Assembly (NCBI GenBank): GCA_000697355.1
Contig: JNEN01001256.1
Location: forward strand, 186,001 to 250,000
Direction: 5' to 3'
Length of the DNA: 64,000 bases
Origin: Syncephalastrum monosporum B8922
Taxonomy: Eukaryota > Mucoromycota > Mucoromycetes > Mucorales > Syncephalastraceae
Shown piece after piece: positions 1,897 through 49,749 of the stretch (position 1 is the first letter of the stretch; the number at the start of each line of letters is the position of its first letter). The notes beneath the pieces are model-generated. The model had not been told where the DNA came from. It saw nothing but the letters and a program-made list of their open reading frames with translations, and made no database searches. The position numbers were made by a program, and so were the translations under genes.

Positions 1897-4800
1897 ATGC
1901 CAGGCACCACCCACGGCAGACTCGCTGATCAACCAAGCATTCTGACAGCACCGCGTGGAGATGCCACCAAGAATGGAGATTCTGACTTGGGGTAATCACC
2001 GTTTCTTTTGAAAAAAAAAGAGAGAGCCAAGAGAGGGAAAATGAGAGAGATATCGAGTGATGATGATAGAGACTGTGCCATCAGGAGCTCTTACTTTCGT
2101 CTCTTGTTTTCCTTTCTCTCTGGCCCCCTCCCCCCATCGCACACACACATTTATATCTGCACACATGCAACCTATATACAGATGCACCCCCCGAAAATAA
2201 GTGGTCGAACCTGTCTCTCACATTGCATTATACTTTTTATTATTATTATTATATGATGCTATCCCTACGCTGCCATAACAGAAGCGACTCGGAGGTCATG
2301 GACAGCCTCGCACCTGCCGCAGACGGATTGATACGGCTTCGGGAGCATCCCGACGACGACCCCGGGCAATGGCAGCAGCGGTCACGCGAAAGGGAAAGCG
2401 TGCGCTTTCCACAGGAGTCGCTCCACAGCTTTCGCTTCTCCTCCTCTTCGTCCTCGTCGAACAATCACGACCTCGTCGAGCTCCGCAAATCGCTGATGAA
2501 CCGCTCTCTCGACTTCATGAAGCATGCTGCGTTCAACCACTCGGACACGCTCCCCGGCCACTACTCGCCCTCTGCCCTCCTGACACACTCGCTCGTCGAC
2601 ACTCGCACCAAGACCAAGTCCGTCGACTACAGCCCCGTCTCTTCCTTTAAGCTCGACCACTACAAGGCCGCCCGACGGCGCCGCCGCAGCAACCCCATGC
2701 CTGGCATCCAGGAGTCTTCCTCGTCGTCGTCCCTTCCAGGCACCCCCGCCGACGAATCCGATCTGAAGAAGCAGCCCCTCTCCTCTTCGTCGACGTCGTC
2801 TTCTCGACCGCTCACGCCCGACGACACCGACGATGTCACGCCCTCGTCCTCGTCCACGCTATCATCCACCAGCACCAACCAACGCAAGCCGTCGCACATG
2901 CTCTTCCCTCACCCCGCCCTTCACAACCCCTCCCGCTTCCTGCCCCAGAATCAAGCCATCCTGACAACATACGACGACTGGCGTGTCATTCTATCCAACG
3001 ACGTCGCTGGCCTGGTCCTGGTCGGCACCGGCGGAAGTTGTCGCGGCCTCGTCGGCACTTGCGTCATTGATTTCATTGAACCTACCTACCGATCCCGTTT
3101 TCTGGACATGGTGATGCGTCGGCGTGACGAGCTCGGCCGGTCCGACGAGAATACAGGTGGCATGGTCCTTATTTGCGGCAACGTGGTACGTTTTTTGCTC
3201 CTTCTAGAGGAGTCAGCCCAACGCAGCCGATCTAAAGCGCATTGCTTTAACACTTTTCTCTTTCCTTCTTTGTAATTAGTTGCCCATTGTCAAACAAGAC
3301 GGGACACGTTCGGCAGCCTCACTCTGGCTAAAGGAGAAGCGAAATGACGCTGGTTCGTCCGTGTACATCTGGATCTTCGAAGAGGTGTTCGAGACTGTGA
3401 TCCACGTGTCCGTTGATATGGATGTAAGCCCAAACTCTAATTTTTAATGCTTTATATGTTCTTCTTTGTCTTTCCTCAATTCACACACACACGCCCTCCC
3501 ATCTCTTTAGGGCACCATTCACTACGTCGACGGCGCTGTCCAGGACCTCTACGGTTATCGCCCTGACGAATTAATCGGTGCTCCCATCGACACATTGATC
3601 CCGTCCCTCGCCAAAGACAAGCGCAGCGGGTGGCAGGACGTGAACCGGTTACGGTCCTTTGGCAGCAAAACCAAGCTCGGCGCACACTTCCCCATCATTG
3701 CCAAGATCCACACCGTCACGCCCCCACCACCACCACCAACACTATCCGACAACACAGCTGCCTGTAACGATGCGCCAAATCATCAGCCGCGCTTTACTCT
3801 TCGTATTACATCCATCCCAATGATCGCCGGTCTGGTGACCATACGGCGGACCGGTATCATTGATGGGTGTAACGCGGCATTTGCCGGGTACATGTTTGGC
3901 CTTTCGCAGGAAGAGCTGGTCAAAAAAGATATTGCCGAGCTCGTGCCTCAATTTCCGCGCTTGCTCCATTGCTTGCAGCGCGACGACCTCCTGCAGCATG
4001 GCATCATCATCAACAACCTGATCTGCCGCAAGCTCGTTGCCGACGACAAGAGTGTTGAAAAATCCCTCGACGGCAAGCCGCGGCGGCTCACGCAGGCCCC
4101 CAATGGCCAGAGCCTGCCGGTCCTGATTGCTATCCACCGTGACCAGACTCCTATTGAGGTGCAGCTGCAGCTCAAGCTCGTGGAGGGCTCGGATGATGTC
4201 TGTGCACTCTGGATCACGTACGACCGCGAGGCGACCTTTGCACGTGTCGGCCACTCCCAGCCTGCGACCACGCCCCCCCTTGAACTCAAACAACACAATG
4301 GCCTTGGCCTCCCCGCCGCGCGCAGGCCTATACCCTCTGACCCAGAACACGATACAAAAGATAAGCCGTCCTCGACGGCGCAGCGCTCCCTCGCAGAAAA
4401 AAAGAAGCAGCAGCACCAGCAGCATCAGGAAGCCGAGCAGTACTCGTCCTCACCGCCGCCCATGCGCATTATCACCAGCTTCACCCGTCCCGACTTCTCA
4501 TCCCAACAACAGCCGCCGCCGAGCTCGCCTGTGTCACCGAGCACGCCAATCACAGTGCGATCCGCCACACTGGAACATAAGCGATCGTCGCTGCAGCATC
4601 AAGTTATGCCCGCCACGCCGCCCGCCCTGGTCTACTCGGCACAGACCAACGCGACCTCAATCGATGACTTTGAGATTCTCGAGAACCTCGGCCAGGGTGC
4701 CTACGGCCTCGTCAAGGTCGCGGTGCGCAAGGGTGACCCGGAGCGCAAAAAAGTCGTGATCAAGTACGTCATCAAGTCGCGCATACTTGTCGACTGCTGG

Positions 4801-43689: not shown

Positions 43690-46600
43690 ATGGCCGATTG
43701 GCGACTCGGCAGACGGAGACGTCGACGGCCATCCCTGATATATTTATGTCTTCATTTTGTTTCTATCCTTCTGATGTTTCAACACCGCGTGTATGCAGCT
43801 CCTAGTCCCAACACGACGACGAACGCCACAACCACCACATCCGCCACTCCACCCTTTACCGCTAATACCACACTGACTACCACTACTGCGCCCGCCGGCG
43901 CTGCGACATACACGATTGGCGTCCTCTTTCCCGATCCGGCCGCGGTACGTCGAGATGACCCCACCCTGAATGATATGATTCTCGCAAGCGAGACGGCCAT
44001 CATCATGGCTGCACAGAACATCTCAGTCAATCACGTCCTCCCAGGTACAGCTTTAGCATTTCTAATCGGGCAAAACGAGGCAAAAAAATTCTGTGGAACC
44101 ACCTTTCTGATTCAGTTTTGCAGATGTCGAGCTTAAATTTGTCCGTTACTATTCGGACGAGAACAATCTCGGTCAAACAGCCTGGACGACCGTCAGTATG
44201 CTCGAAGCCGGTGTCAAGTAAGTCCCATCATGAATATAACAAAAAAAAAAAAAAGAGAGAAGGGGGCGTTATTTTATTCATCCATTTTTATTTTTCTCTT
44301 CTTGAAAAAAAAAAGTGCTATTGTCGGCGACATGATCTCTGACATGACTGAGACGGAAGCTGGTATCGCCGGCGTGCGCAGCATTCCCCAATGCAGCTGT
44401 GCTTCAGCCTCGCGAACGCTCTCCGACAAGGATGCCTACCCATACTTTTTCAGGACCGTCGGTGATGTCGCGCTCTTCGGGAGAAGTCTCATTGATTGGG
44501 TCTCGCATATGGGCTGGAGCATGTTCGCCATTATTTACACAAACGATAACGTCGGCCAACAAGGTAATAATAATAACGCCATAATGTCCGCCACAAGCGA
44601 TCGGCAATAAGCGTAAACGGAGACAGAGTAAAAGAGAGCGCAATTATAACCTATTTTGACTTGCAGTACTATCTGCCATGCTCAGCCGAGCCGCAGATCA
44701 TAACATCCATGCTATGACCCAACTCCCTCTGTATGATATGAGCAAAGTCGAAGGTATGTAAATGGTAACCATCCATTTGCCATTTATGATCTTGTGTGTC
44801 ACTCACGCTGTATTTTTCATTACACACACCTGTCTTGGTACAGATACCCTCGAGAAGCTCGAGGCGTCAGGTGCGCGAGTCGTCATTTTTACAGACTCCA
44901 CGACCTCCGATCAGCTCACCGTGCTCCAGACTGCCCGGTAAGGGAATGTGCACAGACGTCTCTAATTGATCTAACCCAATCACATCGCACTCTGACGCCA
45001 CGAAACAGATCGATGGGTCTCCTCTCTGAAGGCTGGGTCTGGATGCTCACCAACGACATGTCGCCTGCTATCCGCGACACAGTCGATTCACCTGAAGAGT
45101 TGGCAGAATACGACGGCCTCATGTTCATTAGCGGTTTATGGGACTGTAAGTGTAACAATGACGTGTCAAACGAACCCTGTTGGTGATCGTCCCGCCTCAT
45201 GCCTTTTTGTCATATAGTGTCCGGCATATCGGCCTACGATGACATGCAACGTGAATGGCAAAGCCAAAGTATTCCCGCCAACTTGTAAGTAGTGTCACAT
45301 TCACACAGGAAATCCGTTAACCCAGCACATCTTTGATTTCTATAGCACTAATCCCGACGCGTGGTACTCGTCGGGTTTGTCCTACAATGCCCCTAACGCC
45401 TATGCATGTGCTGAACTTTTAGCACTTGGTCTGAACAAGGTAAGCGAACCCTTTCTCTTCTCTTTTCCCGTTTCTGCTCCCCAGGATGTGGCTCATTTAA
45501 AGTTCACTAGTCACTTGAGACTTACCCCGGCGGCCGGCAGCAAGGTCTTAGTGACCTCAAGGCTGAAAAATTCAACTCCTCCGTGATGACACCTGAGTTT
45601 TACAACTTGAATTATACGGGTCCAGCGGGTAAATATGGGGAAAAATTGTTACACCAGCTCAAATGAATAACGCCATTTCCGGATTTTATCAGGGTTCATG
45701 GATTTCTTGCCCACTGGTATAACAATGACAAAGAAAAAGGGGGGGTCACCCCTTACAGACATTGTGCTGATATTCGTCCATGTCCTAGGTGACCTCTCTA
45801 CCGGCTACTTTGGCCTGCAGTACATGCTTAACGGCTCGGTCGTGACGTATGCCACGCTCAAGAACAACTACTTTGAATTTCTGTCCAACACGACCATCCT
45901 TTACCCCGGCCACACAACCCACAAGCCGTCTGACATGGTAGCCAAGTCTTGTACGTACCTTACGCCAATAGGGACAATTTTACTATGTATGCGTGGATGC
46001 ACTTACAGAACCAATCGACAGGCCTCAACCCCACCTACACAGATTCGGCTGGTATCGTCGTGCTGGCGATCTCGGCTCTCGGGTTCGCATTTTGCCTTAC
46101 TTTGATCGGCCTGATCGCATGGTATAGAGATCTGAAGCCCATCATGGCTGCCAGCCCGTCCTTTTGCTGCGTTCAGCTTGTTGGTATCTTGCTTGGCTAC
46201 GCGGGTGTTGTCATGTACCTTGATTATCCGTCGCCTGCCAAGTGTATCGCGCGCAAGTTTGCCATCACCACGGGCTTTATCTTGGTCGTCGGAAGCTTGA
46301 TTGCAAAAAATTATCGGTAATACATTATATCATGCAAAGACATACAACTGACTTAATATACTATTGAAATAGAATCTATCGAATGTAGGTCCATTTCGGT
46401 GTAATAGCCGTTGGTTGCTTAACAGAATCCTATGCAGTTTCCAGAACGTATTCACAGTGCGCACGTCCAGGCTCAAGTCATCGTACCTGATGCGCATTTT
46501 AATCATTTTTGGAGCCGTGGCCTACATTCCCTTGATCGTATGGGAGAGCATGTACCACTATGAAGTAAAGGACACCATGGTCACCGCCGATACCTACTGC

Positions 46601-47985
46601 TGGCTCTGTTTCTACCCTGACACACGACCCGAGTGGCGACGGCTCAATCCCACAGAAATCTTTGTACTTTCGTGGGGCGTGCTTCTCATTATCATTGCCG
46701 CCTTACTAGCTTTCAAGGTAGGTTATGCTAGTTTTCAAATGTAAAAAAAAATTACTCATCATCCTTGTTATCTCTAGACACGTAAGGTACAAGGCAAATG
46801 GTCGGAAACAAACCAAACCGCCTATGTTAGCTAGTAAGTTATCTTAGAATAATCTGATACACTGTGCTCACGAAATATTCTTTTTCACTATAGCAACATT
46901 GGTCTAGCCGCCATCCTCGCCAGTCCAAGTTTCTTCATGACGATCGACAACTTTTTGATTGGTTTTTACCTCAAAATCTCGTCCGTGCTCTTTGCCGCCA
47001 CGTTCACGTTGGTTGTGCTCTTTTTTCCCAAATTGACGGTTATCCTGCAGTATATTTATTCGGAGCATCGCATGAAACTTTGGCGGCTCGGTGAGCGATT
47101 TTACAGGGACCGAAGCAATAGCCGCGACGAGTTTTCCAACAATGCCATGACGGAAGAGAACAGTGAGCAGATGCCTGAAAATTTGGCTGCGCGAAATTTG
47201 TTGGATTTCAGTGTGCAGGCGCACGAGGGTATGCTTCCTGTCAAAAGGGTGTCGCGGTTCAACTTTATGGTCATCTGGGAGCTTAAGCATATCGTGGTCG
47301 TTCCCTTAAAACGCTTTTTTGTCTTGATGAACGTAAGTCTCTACAAATTTTCTACATTTTAACGTGCTCACTTTTTTTTTGTCTGAAGCAATCAGGGCAA
47401 AAGGCACAAAGATACCATTACGTGGCATGTGAACCTGTTTCAAGCTCGACAGCGCGCTGCATGTTTCGAGTACTCACTGACAATGACAGTATTTTCATGT
47501 TCCAAGTGCACGACCAAGTGGCGCTCGCACGCTGGATCCAGTGGTTCCGTGAGCCTGTCGACCATACCAACGAGCAAGCGGCGCAAGAGCGACAGTACAG
47601 CCACTCAGAGGATGATAATGTTATCATGATGCACAGCTATTATGATGCAACGGAAGACGATAACCTCAAGTTTACGAACAAAAAGTTGGACGTGCATGAT
47701 CCGCTGACAACATTCGGTGCAGTGCGTCCCAACCAGACCGCCCAGACCCACTCCACCATTGCCTCTCTGCGCCGTCCCTCTGCTCTGACAGACCCCTCCT
47801 TATCTACTTACAGTGCCTTGGGTGACCGCCAGCCGTCGTCGTCGCTCATAGACGATGCTATCCACGGCAGCAGTGACCTTCTAATCCGCCAGAACCGATC
47901 TGACCACCAATTTTCGCTTTCGCCTACCACAAGGACATCCTTCACCAGTATGATGACGGATTCAACACGTCCTTCACATTATTAA
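43690..47985 (+). CDS. Class C (GABA-B-like) G-protein-coupled receptor with C-terminal PH-like domain
   Basis: Seventeen exons: 43690-44044, 44124-44217, 44316-44563, 44667-44753, 44844-44937, 45009-45145, 45218-45284, 45346-45439, 45541-45628, 45693-45716, 45789-45950, 46022-46316, 46373-46384, 46438-46717, 46778-46833, 46894-47332, 47389-47985. They give 1,042 residues. A signal peptide or anchor (residues 14-38) and a Thr/Asn-rich linker precede a bilobed type-1 periplasmic-binding ligand domain at about 74-480 (TIGVLFPDPAAV, AIVGDMISDMTETEAG). The 7TM core spans about 490-745 with class C landmarks: DLKPIMAASPSF, KNYRIYRIFQN in loop 2, and ETNQTAYVSYNIG before TM6. About residues 806-903 resemble a PH domain (HEGMLPVKR start, FQVHDQVALARWIQWF final helix). 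The tail is Ser-rich. Ligand is unknown; amino-acid-like ligands are usual in this class. Confidence 0.9.
46373..46384 (+). other. 12-nt micro-exon of the class C receptor
   Basis: Twelve bases between introns of 56 nt (46317-46372) and 53 nt (46385-46437). It completes an Arg codon, encodes Ile-Tyr-Arg and starts an Ile codon. This restores the class C loop-2 motif KNYRIYRIF. Without it the junction falls out of the conserved pattern, so the motif supports the exon strongly. Confidence 0.8.
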
Positions 47986-48884
47986 TTTGCTGTACCATAC
48001 GTATCCCTTGTTTGAATATGCCAACTCTTGTAAATATATATACACTTTACCCATTTATCGCCATAGACTACACCTTTACAGCGATGACCACATCATATCA
48101 TATTACGAGACTCGACGCCAATTGACGCGTATTACTCTTTGCTCATCACAATGGCTTCGTGCAGTATATGCCAGTAAATTTAATTGTATAGCACTAATTT
48201 GTGATATGCACCTAATCACGTCCTTACACCTCTTCGCCTTGGATTCGTTTCTTTTCTATTGTGACTTTGTCTTCCTCCAATTCCAATACATGTGCATATC
48301 GATGGCTTTCAAACGTGCATGAGCTATATATGCCTAACAGCGACATGCGGCGAGGAAGTACGTCGCAACCGATGGGTGCAGACTGAAAACTCTATTTGAA
48401 CCCCTAAGCTTAAAAAAAGGTGGAGAAAAACTTTAAAGAGCATCACCCCCAAACTGATATATCCTCGCAGGACTACATCGTATTTTGTAGCAGTCTAAAT
48501 GGTGCGTCTAGAACGCGTATATATATTCCTTCAGGGGTGAGCTGGTGCAAAACGACATTGTTTAAAACCTTTGCACGGATACCAAATTAAGTTTCACTTA
48601 TGCGAAAAATATGGCAGAGAAATCAGGCGACAGCCAAGGATAACGGGCTCATACAGTTTAAACCTGTACGCAAAGGCCATAGAATGAAGATTGCCGCTCA
48701 ACAGAGCGTGAAGCTGATAGCATAACCGTTAGCGATACATATAAATACGTGTATTATATGAGCACAGGTCTCTTGATGATATGATACCAAGGAAATGGCG
48801 GCCATTTGTGAAAGTGATCAATGCGCGCCGAATTAGGACCTATGCTCTTTTATCTTCTGCAGCTTCTTCTCTATTGATTCCCCC
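47986..48884. other. Intergenic region after the receptor gene
   Basis: About 0.9 kb, AT-rich, with short frames only. The first 300 bp are probably receptor 3' UTR and the last 100 bp (T/C-rich) the promoter of the Alba-like gene. No RNA gene or repeat is recognised. Confidence 0.4.
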
Positions 48885-49749
48885 ATGTTTGATCCCAATG
48901 CAGCCGAATTCAAGCCTCGATCCGAACTTTTGAATCCTCAGGCAGCTTCATTTACCCCTCTCCCTAAACCTGCTTCCAACACGGACACGAAAGACCCTAG
49001 TTCATCGCAGCAACGCGGCAAAAAGAAAACCTCTCGGGACGGCAAGGCAAAAAGCGGTGCTGCACAACAACAACAACAGCAGCAACAACAACTCCAGAAA
49101 GGAAGCTCAACTCATAAAAAGCAGACTTCCCCGCCTCGAACGCCACAGCAAAGAAAAGCGTCGTCTTCAGTGCGTGCATCGTCCAAACAATCGAGCCAGC
49201 CGCAGCAGAAGCAGCACAAACAAGAACAAAAGCAGAAACAGAAGAAGACATCACTTTTCGACGAACCTGTCAAATTTATCACGCTTGAACAACCCATCGA
49301 GCCGGTGTATCGCATCCGACCTGAAGACCCCGATGAGGGAGAGTTACGGCTCTCGCATGGTTATGAGCGTTACATTGAATGGGTAAGTGCTGTATCGTAC
49401 CATCATCTTGATCTCACAGGGTACTCGCTGATAGATCGGACGTTGTCTCAAAACATTTGAAGCAGTGACGCTTGTCGGTATGGACGGGGCCATTGTGGAT
49501 GTTGTGTCGCTTGTCAATATCTTGCAAGAAAGATACATCGGTGAGCATGAAGGTAAGGGACGCCATAGACGAAAGCGAGCTGTCACTGATGCTGATATGC
49601 ACGCATGCATGCATGCATTCATTCATTTTTTTTTTTTTATATTTTTATATTTTTATTTTGTATATCTAATAGACGTTGAGACATTCACGGTCGAGCAGGG
49701 CAACAAGCGACACATCAGCTGTTTACAAGTAAGATTGTGTCGCACCTGA
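48885..49749 (+). CDS. Alba-like nucleic-acid-binding protein with low-complexity N-terminus
   Basis: Exons 48885-49382, 49435-49552 and 49673-49749 give 230 residues. The first 130 residues are disordered: an opening FDPNAAEFKPRSELLNPQAASF-like motif, polyGln, and Lys/Gln/Ser-rich sequence. The C-terminal 95 residues resemble an Alba fold: RYIEWIGRCLKTFEAVTLVGMDGAIVDVVSLVNILQER, then a beta-hairpin ending in KRHISCLQVRL. Alba proteins bind RNA or DNA, in RNase P/MRP or mRNA granules. The AEFKP start is reminiscent of PAM2-type poly(A)-binding-protein ligands, an inference. I keep the last exon unspliced to the stop at 49749. A GTAAGA donor 9 bases earlier would add nothing, because the next acceptor leads straight to a stop. 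Confidence 0.65.
49597..49628 (+). repeat. GCAT/ATTC microsatellite in Alba-like intron
   Basis: Tandem GCAT units followed by ATTC units and a T12 run, inside the second intron of the Alba-like gene. Confidence 0.75.

Follow-up and report, generated by a model that had tools for sequence, protein, structure and literature searches.

In animals, the C-terminus of class C G-protein-coupled receptors (GPCRs) is a coiled coil or a disordered tail, and the subunits of the GABA-B receptor pair through a C-terminal coiled coil. KCTD proteins (KCTD12/16) bind the GABA-B receptor tail and G-beta-gamma, and the binding of KCTD to G-beta-gamma is also named in PMC9976452. Glutamate-family receptors are already known from fungi (PMC3251606, PMC12842992), and a review describes the experimental validation of those of early-diverging fungi as pending (PMC13308352). 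The nearest idea to the one developed here is that of the GPCR-bigrams (GPCR-PIPK and others) of oomycetes and Dictyostelium, which carry a C-terminal intracellular accessory domain that is in some cases tied to phospholipid signalling (PMC6033456). Here we analyse a stretch of 64,000 nucleotides of Syncephalastrum monosporum B8922 (contig JNEN01001256.1, positions 186,001–250,000; the window), which contains a gene for a GABA-B-like class C receptor. The receptor chain continues past the seven-transmembrane domain (7TM) into a conserved cytoplasmic tail, predicted to be a divergent pleckstrin-homology (PH) domain, that has descended together with the 7TM.

The receptors are known, and the PH tail on them appears to be the new part. 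In the literature searched, which covered few subscription papers, fungal glutamate-family receptors are nowhere described as having a PH tail. The term ‘PH domain’ occurs 0 times in the main texts of PMC12842992, PMC13308352, PMC3251606, PMC12716839, and PMC6033456, and ‘pleckstrin’ occurs once each in those of PMC6033456 (in the name of DEP) and PMC12716839. The window receptor resembles the GPCR-bigrams in joining a receptor to a C-terminal intracellular accessory domain. It differs in that their accessory domains are described as catalytic (PMC6033456), whereas a PH fold is non-catalytic, and the window receptor lacks the catalytic accessory domain by which a bigram is defined.

The sequence-only reading of this DNA had called the receptor GABA-B-like, and the call is sound. 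The protein has both the Venus flytrap (ANF_receptor) and the 7tm_3 domain of a class C GPCR. When compared with solved receptors, the sequence of P0001, a Syncephalastrum racemosum protein with 93.7% identity to the window receptor over 1056 columns, scores slightly better with mGluR2 (E 8.9e-20) than with GABA-B1 (E 8e-19). The subtype name is therefore given for architecture, as the cysteine-rich NCD3G (PF07562) between flytrap and 7TM had no match at E ≤ 10 in a scan of the draft protein. P0001 is collinear with GABA-B1 over residues 99–759, and the fungal receptor departs from both GABA-B and mGluR in ending in the predicted PH-fold domain. The gene and its parts are placed in the window as follows.

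43690..47985, + strand: class C receptor gene, 17 exons with GT-AG introns, 1052 residues, spliced with P0001 as guide rather than on RNA evidence.
43990..45108 (introns included), + strand: Venus flytrap (ANF_receptor) match, residues 101–326 (PF01094, E 1.2e-29).
46033..47032 (introns included), + strand: seven-transmembrane domain, residues 498–754 (PF00003, 7tm_3, E 5e-36 in the draft protein; also located by the own-genome search).
47033..47203, + strand: linker, residues 755–811 (57 residues), mean pairwise identity 0.23 over 755–800 and 0.49 over 801–818.
47204..47553 (intron 47333–47388 inside), + strand: predicted PH-fold tail domain, residues 812–909, from AF2 models of relatives' tails, fold searches, and conservation.
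47222..47251, + strand: strand 1 of the tail (HEGMLPVKRV), which contains K825, from model and conservation.
47515..47550, + strand: C-terminal helix of the tail, which contains W903, from model and conservation.
47554..47982, + strand: variable C-terminus, residues 910–1052, identity 0.21 over 909–1052 and 41% S/T/P/Q/N counted from 909.

The proposal that the chain runs on past the seventh transmembrane segment (TM7) into a further module is borne out by the spliced gene. The tail follows the end of 7tm_3 by 57 residues; the two are in frame, and one exon holds the end of 7tm_3 and part of the tail, with EGMLPVKR starting at 47225 (E819) and ALARWIQWF at 47521–47547 (residues 899–907). The span first given for the module, 47222–47566, is right as to the module itself, but it passes over a 56-nucleotide GT-AG intron (47333–47388) inside, and alignment and model place the domain at 47204–47553. 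Exon 46894–47332 holds TM7 (read by eye) together with the first 43 tail residues, which makes it very unlikely that exons 46894–47985 belong to a separate transcript. A 7tm_3 search of the own genome (27.5 Mb, 198 contigs) found two further class C loci, L005 (G000:C42) and L006 (G000:C115). In L006, a single open frame of 305 residues (3367–4284) covers TM7 and the entire tail. The tail profile matches L006 at E 1.2e-40 and L005 in two pieces (E 1.2e-16 and 6.8e-14), so that the PH-like tail is present at each of the three class C loci found in the genome; in S. racemosum, L005 appears to have its counterpart in P0051.

The tail was suggested to have a PH layout from its strand and helix pattern alone, and the predicted barrel with its C-terminal helix, the structural matches, and the sequence profiles all support this. 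AF2 models of relatives' tails show a seven-stranded barrel capped by a C-terminal helix, and their structural matches are headed by solved PH domains. Beta-spectrin, Tiam1/2, and ArhGAP9 PH domains are among the best matches, and Homer EVH1 chains and a PTB chain are also found. Residues were compared in 80 complete tails: 97 proteins gave 83 near-complete tail matches, from which the window protein, P0022, and P0079 were set aside; 60 of the 80 were left below 88% identity, 49 of these form alignment A2, and alignment A3 holds 21. The Trp described earlier as invariant-type (W903, in the helix) is a Trp in 80/80 tails, as are the positions of W836, P845, and Q893 invariant in all of them. 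By sequence, a tail profile run against the PDB is led by PH chains (best E 0.0038), of which spectrin PH is the best match, and p73, SUMO, and DET1 chains come lower (E 0.7–1.3). The Pfam PH family PF00169 matches 18 of the 49 tails at E ≤ 10, at best with 2.9e-5 and covering nearly the whole domain. The profiles thus point to the PH superfamily, but the PF00169 gathering cut-off of 25.1 bits is not reached: the best of the 49 tails scores 25.0 (P0015) and the window tail 12.5 bits (E 0.22). We therefore refer to a divergent PH-fold domain and not to a PF00169 entry, and it is because scores fall just under the curation threshold that the domain is missing from databases.

Several searches gave nothing for this assignment or weigh against it. 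The L006 tail matches no Pfam family at E ≤ 10, and single-tail searches gave no PH-family match at E ≤ 1 in three of seven cases, nor at E ≤ 0.05 for one of ten in a second set. The P0001 tail (member 1 of A2) has no PH match, and the same scan returned chance-level families (transposase and domains of unknown function) for one member each. NCBIfam holds nothing for the tail. For one Mortierella-type tail run against the PDB, the top match is a proteinase inhibitor with no relation to it (E 0.014), followed by adiponectin and then by GRK2 (E 1.1); another finds the PH domain 1v89 at E 0.066 and GRK2 at E 0.46. On all the evidence, we are nonetheless close to certain of both the PH fold and its fusion to the receptor.

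The tail looks like a folded domain because it is a conserved island flanked by two variable stretches. Among 24 proteins (the window protein and P0001–P0023, with P0024 dropped), pairwise identity per column averages 0.52 for the 7TM and 0.54 for the tail, against 0.23 for residues 755–800 and 0.21 for the stretch after the tail. Three protein searches yielded 121 proteins, which were scanned together with the window protein using the tail profile. Of these 122, 103 have a full tail, 12 a partial one, and 7 none, and the profile matches 0 of 610 shuffled proteins. In three of the seven (P0024, P0094, and P0110) the chain breaks off within the 7TM, P0095 is a butterfly protein, P0096 has NCD3G, and P0120 and P0121 are distant; the receptors P0095 and P0096 (the latter with animal-type domains) thus differ from the fungal ones in being without the PH-fold tail. 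When P0095, P0096, P0120, and P0121 are left out and P0032, P0052, and P0062 are counted as fungal-type by similarity, 115 of 118 fungal-type proteins carry the tail (12 of them in part). Two of the searches used regions that include the tail, which favors proteins bearing it, and their scoring was limited to the candidates with most words in common, 7993 and 7994 in number. The fairer search with the 7TM only, which is free of this bias, gave at least a partial tail in 66 of 69 matches, the other three being P0110, whose model stops in the 7TM, and the distant P0120 and P0121. Named tail-bearing sources include Mucorales, Umbelopsis, Bifiguratus, Calcarisporiella, and Mortierella relatives. 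Chytrid or Glomeromycotina names are absent from the three search lists, and word-based searches of this kind cannot show absence; many such receptors are reported in chytrids and Blastocladiomycota (PMC12842992).

Pairwise identities of the 7TM and of the tail are correlated at r = 0.96 over the 4950 pairs from 100 proteins that have both parts, and 999 permutations reached at most 0.17; identity across these proteins averages 0.45 for the 7TM and 0.38 for the tail. This correlation speaks for a single fusion that was then inherited vertically, not for repeated shuffling.

By the canonical rule, a phosphoinositide-binding PH domain has basic residues at three positions: G+4, where strand 1 ends, and W+1 and W+3 in strand 2. 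None of the 80 tails has all three, as anchored by sequence and not by superposed coordinates, which counts against a canonical lipid site; W+1 and W+3 are both basic in 8. The position of K825, next to the canonical one, is basic in 71 of 80 tails and that of R829 in 77, and the median isoelectric point of the tail is 8.0 to 9.2 by group. The PH domains of spectrin, Tiam1, and ArhGAP9 have a non-canonical phosphoinositide site, and a basic patch beside the canonical pocket, as in the tails, would fit a site of that type. Beta-spectrin, Tiam1/2, and ArhGAP9 are cytoskeletal or GTPase regulators and, unlike the protein described here, not receptors.

GRK2 ranks first in Foldseek for both tail models (E 3.5e-4 and 1.7e-4), and its chains make up 12 and 19 of the best 50 matches listed per model, many of them near-duplicate entries. 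The tails share a W-x8-P spacing with GRK2 and a Q-x9-W spacing with GRK2 and spectrin. The PH domain of GRK2 binds anionic phospholipid and G-beta-gamma (PMC8002388, PMC5638609); GRK2 is a kinase that works in trans, whereas here the PH domain is built into the receptor. The position of R587, which we take to be the numbering of the GRK2 site and which was placed by alignment, is basic in 21 of 22 orthologs, in 0 of 31 Mucorales/Umbelopsis paralogs, and in 0 of 27 Mortierella/Calcarisporiella tails. A strict GRK2 reading is opposed by these 58 tails outside the orthologs, by the lack of any conservation after the helix, by VIA-align, which does not rank GRK2 ahead, and by the sequence profile, which spectrin wins. 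As the canonical motif is missing and likeness to GRK2 is no proof of binding, we treat a link of the tail to membrane lipid or G-beta-gamma as possible only.

We propose that the flytrap domain would sense a small ligand and that the 7TM would then activate a heterotrimeric G protein, while the tethered PH tail would dock onto the inner membrane face and/or G-beta-gamma. Docking would keep the receptor beside its G protein or effectors in cis, a task that falls to separate proteins such as GRK2 or KCTD in animals; KCTD, whose fold is different, works in trans. Any lipid binding would depend on a non-canonical site formed by K825 and R829, both conserved in strand 1, together with the loop between strands 1 and 2. 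In the own genome, G-alpha matches cluster at about eleven sites across ten contigs, with one further, weak match on C90, and there are three G-gamma matches; many ascomycetes have about three G-alpha genes. We give docking onto membrane lipid and/or G-beta-gamma an even chance. The narrower form, in which G-beta-gamma freed by the receptor would be captured by the receptor's own PH domain in the manner of GRK2, we consider unlikely.

The tail could instead be a PH-fold adaptor for protein–protein contacts, with no role in lipid or G-beta-gamma binding, that recruits a fungal partner such as a scaffold, trafficking, or desensitization factor. Homer offers an analogy, as its EVH1 fold recognizes the tails of group I mGluRs in trans, and Homer EVH1 and PTB chains do occur among the structural matches. 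Lipid binding is weak or absent in many PH domains, and the canonical motif occurs in 0/80 tails, but an adaptor would not call for the basic patch kept at K825 and R829 or for the basic isoelectric points. We regard the adaptor as a tenable if somewhat doubtful alternative. The tail might also be a module for folding, dimerization, or export that replaces the GABA-B coiled coil and has no signaling ligand. Such a module would also explain why the tail evolves in step with the 7TM and is present at all three genomic paralogs, and the coiled-coil pairing of animal GABA-B subunits lends it a precedent; PH domains, however, seldom act as dimerizers only, and the conserved basic residues would be left with no obvious role, so that we find it quite improbable. 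That a gene model had joined a separate downstream PH gene to the receptor is barely conceivable and was rejected on the shared exon and the one-frame paralog, with the tail in 115/118 proteins standing against it as well, and nothing at the window locus favors it even if there do seem to be public models that contain such joins.

These are P0075 and P0111, which list unrelated enzyme domains next to the receptor (phosphoacetylglucosamine mutase and ribonucleotide reductase), probably as annotation errors; P0040, named choline phosphate cytidylyltransferase, is probably another. As for the window gene itself, an earlier 15-exon model was rejected when homology to P0001 revealed a wrong acceptor and two missed microexons, 45693–45716 (24 nucleotides) and 46373–46384 (12 nucleotides), both inferred from that homology. 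Within a motif conserved among homologs, the 12-nucleotide microexon contributes to five residues only (R-I-Y-R-I). The Pfam scan of the full receptor was done on the first-draft protein, in which 7tm_3 spans draft residues 480–736, and it found no other family of weight besides ANF_receptor and 7tm_3. Downstream of the receptor, an open frame at 48837–49460 has a glutamine-rich stretch.

Standard annotation misses the tail domain across this receptor family. A built-in, conserved PH domain points the search to the inner membrane face and to G-beta-gamma, and as a small module the tail lends itself to expression and testing in isolation. If the GRK2-like capture were true, a single chain would serve as receptor, as G-protein tether, and as sensor of membrane lipid. 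The receptor family would then be an ancient one, with this arrangement in place before Mucorales, Umbelopsis, Calcarisporiella, and Mortierella diverged, and the way in which GRK2 finds active receptors would gain a counterpart in cis.
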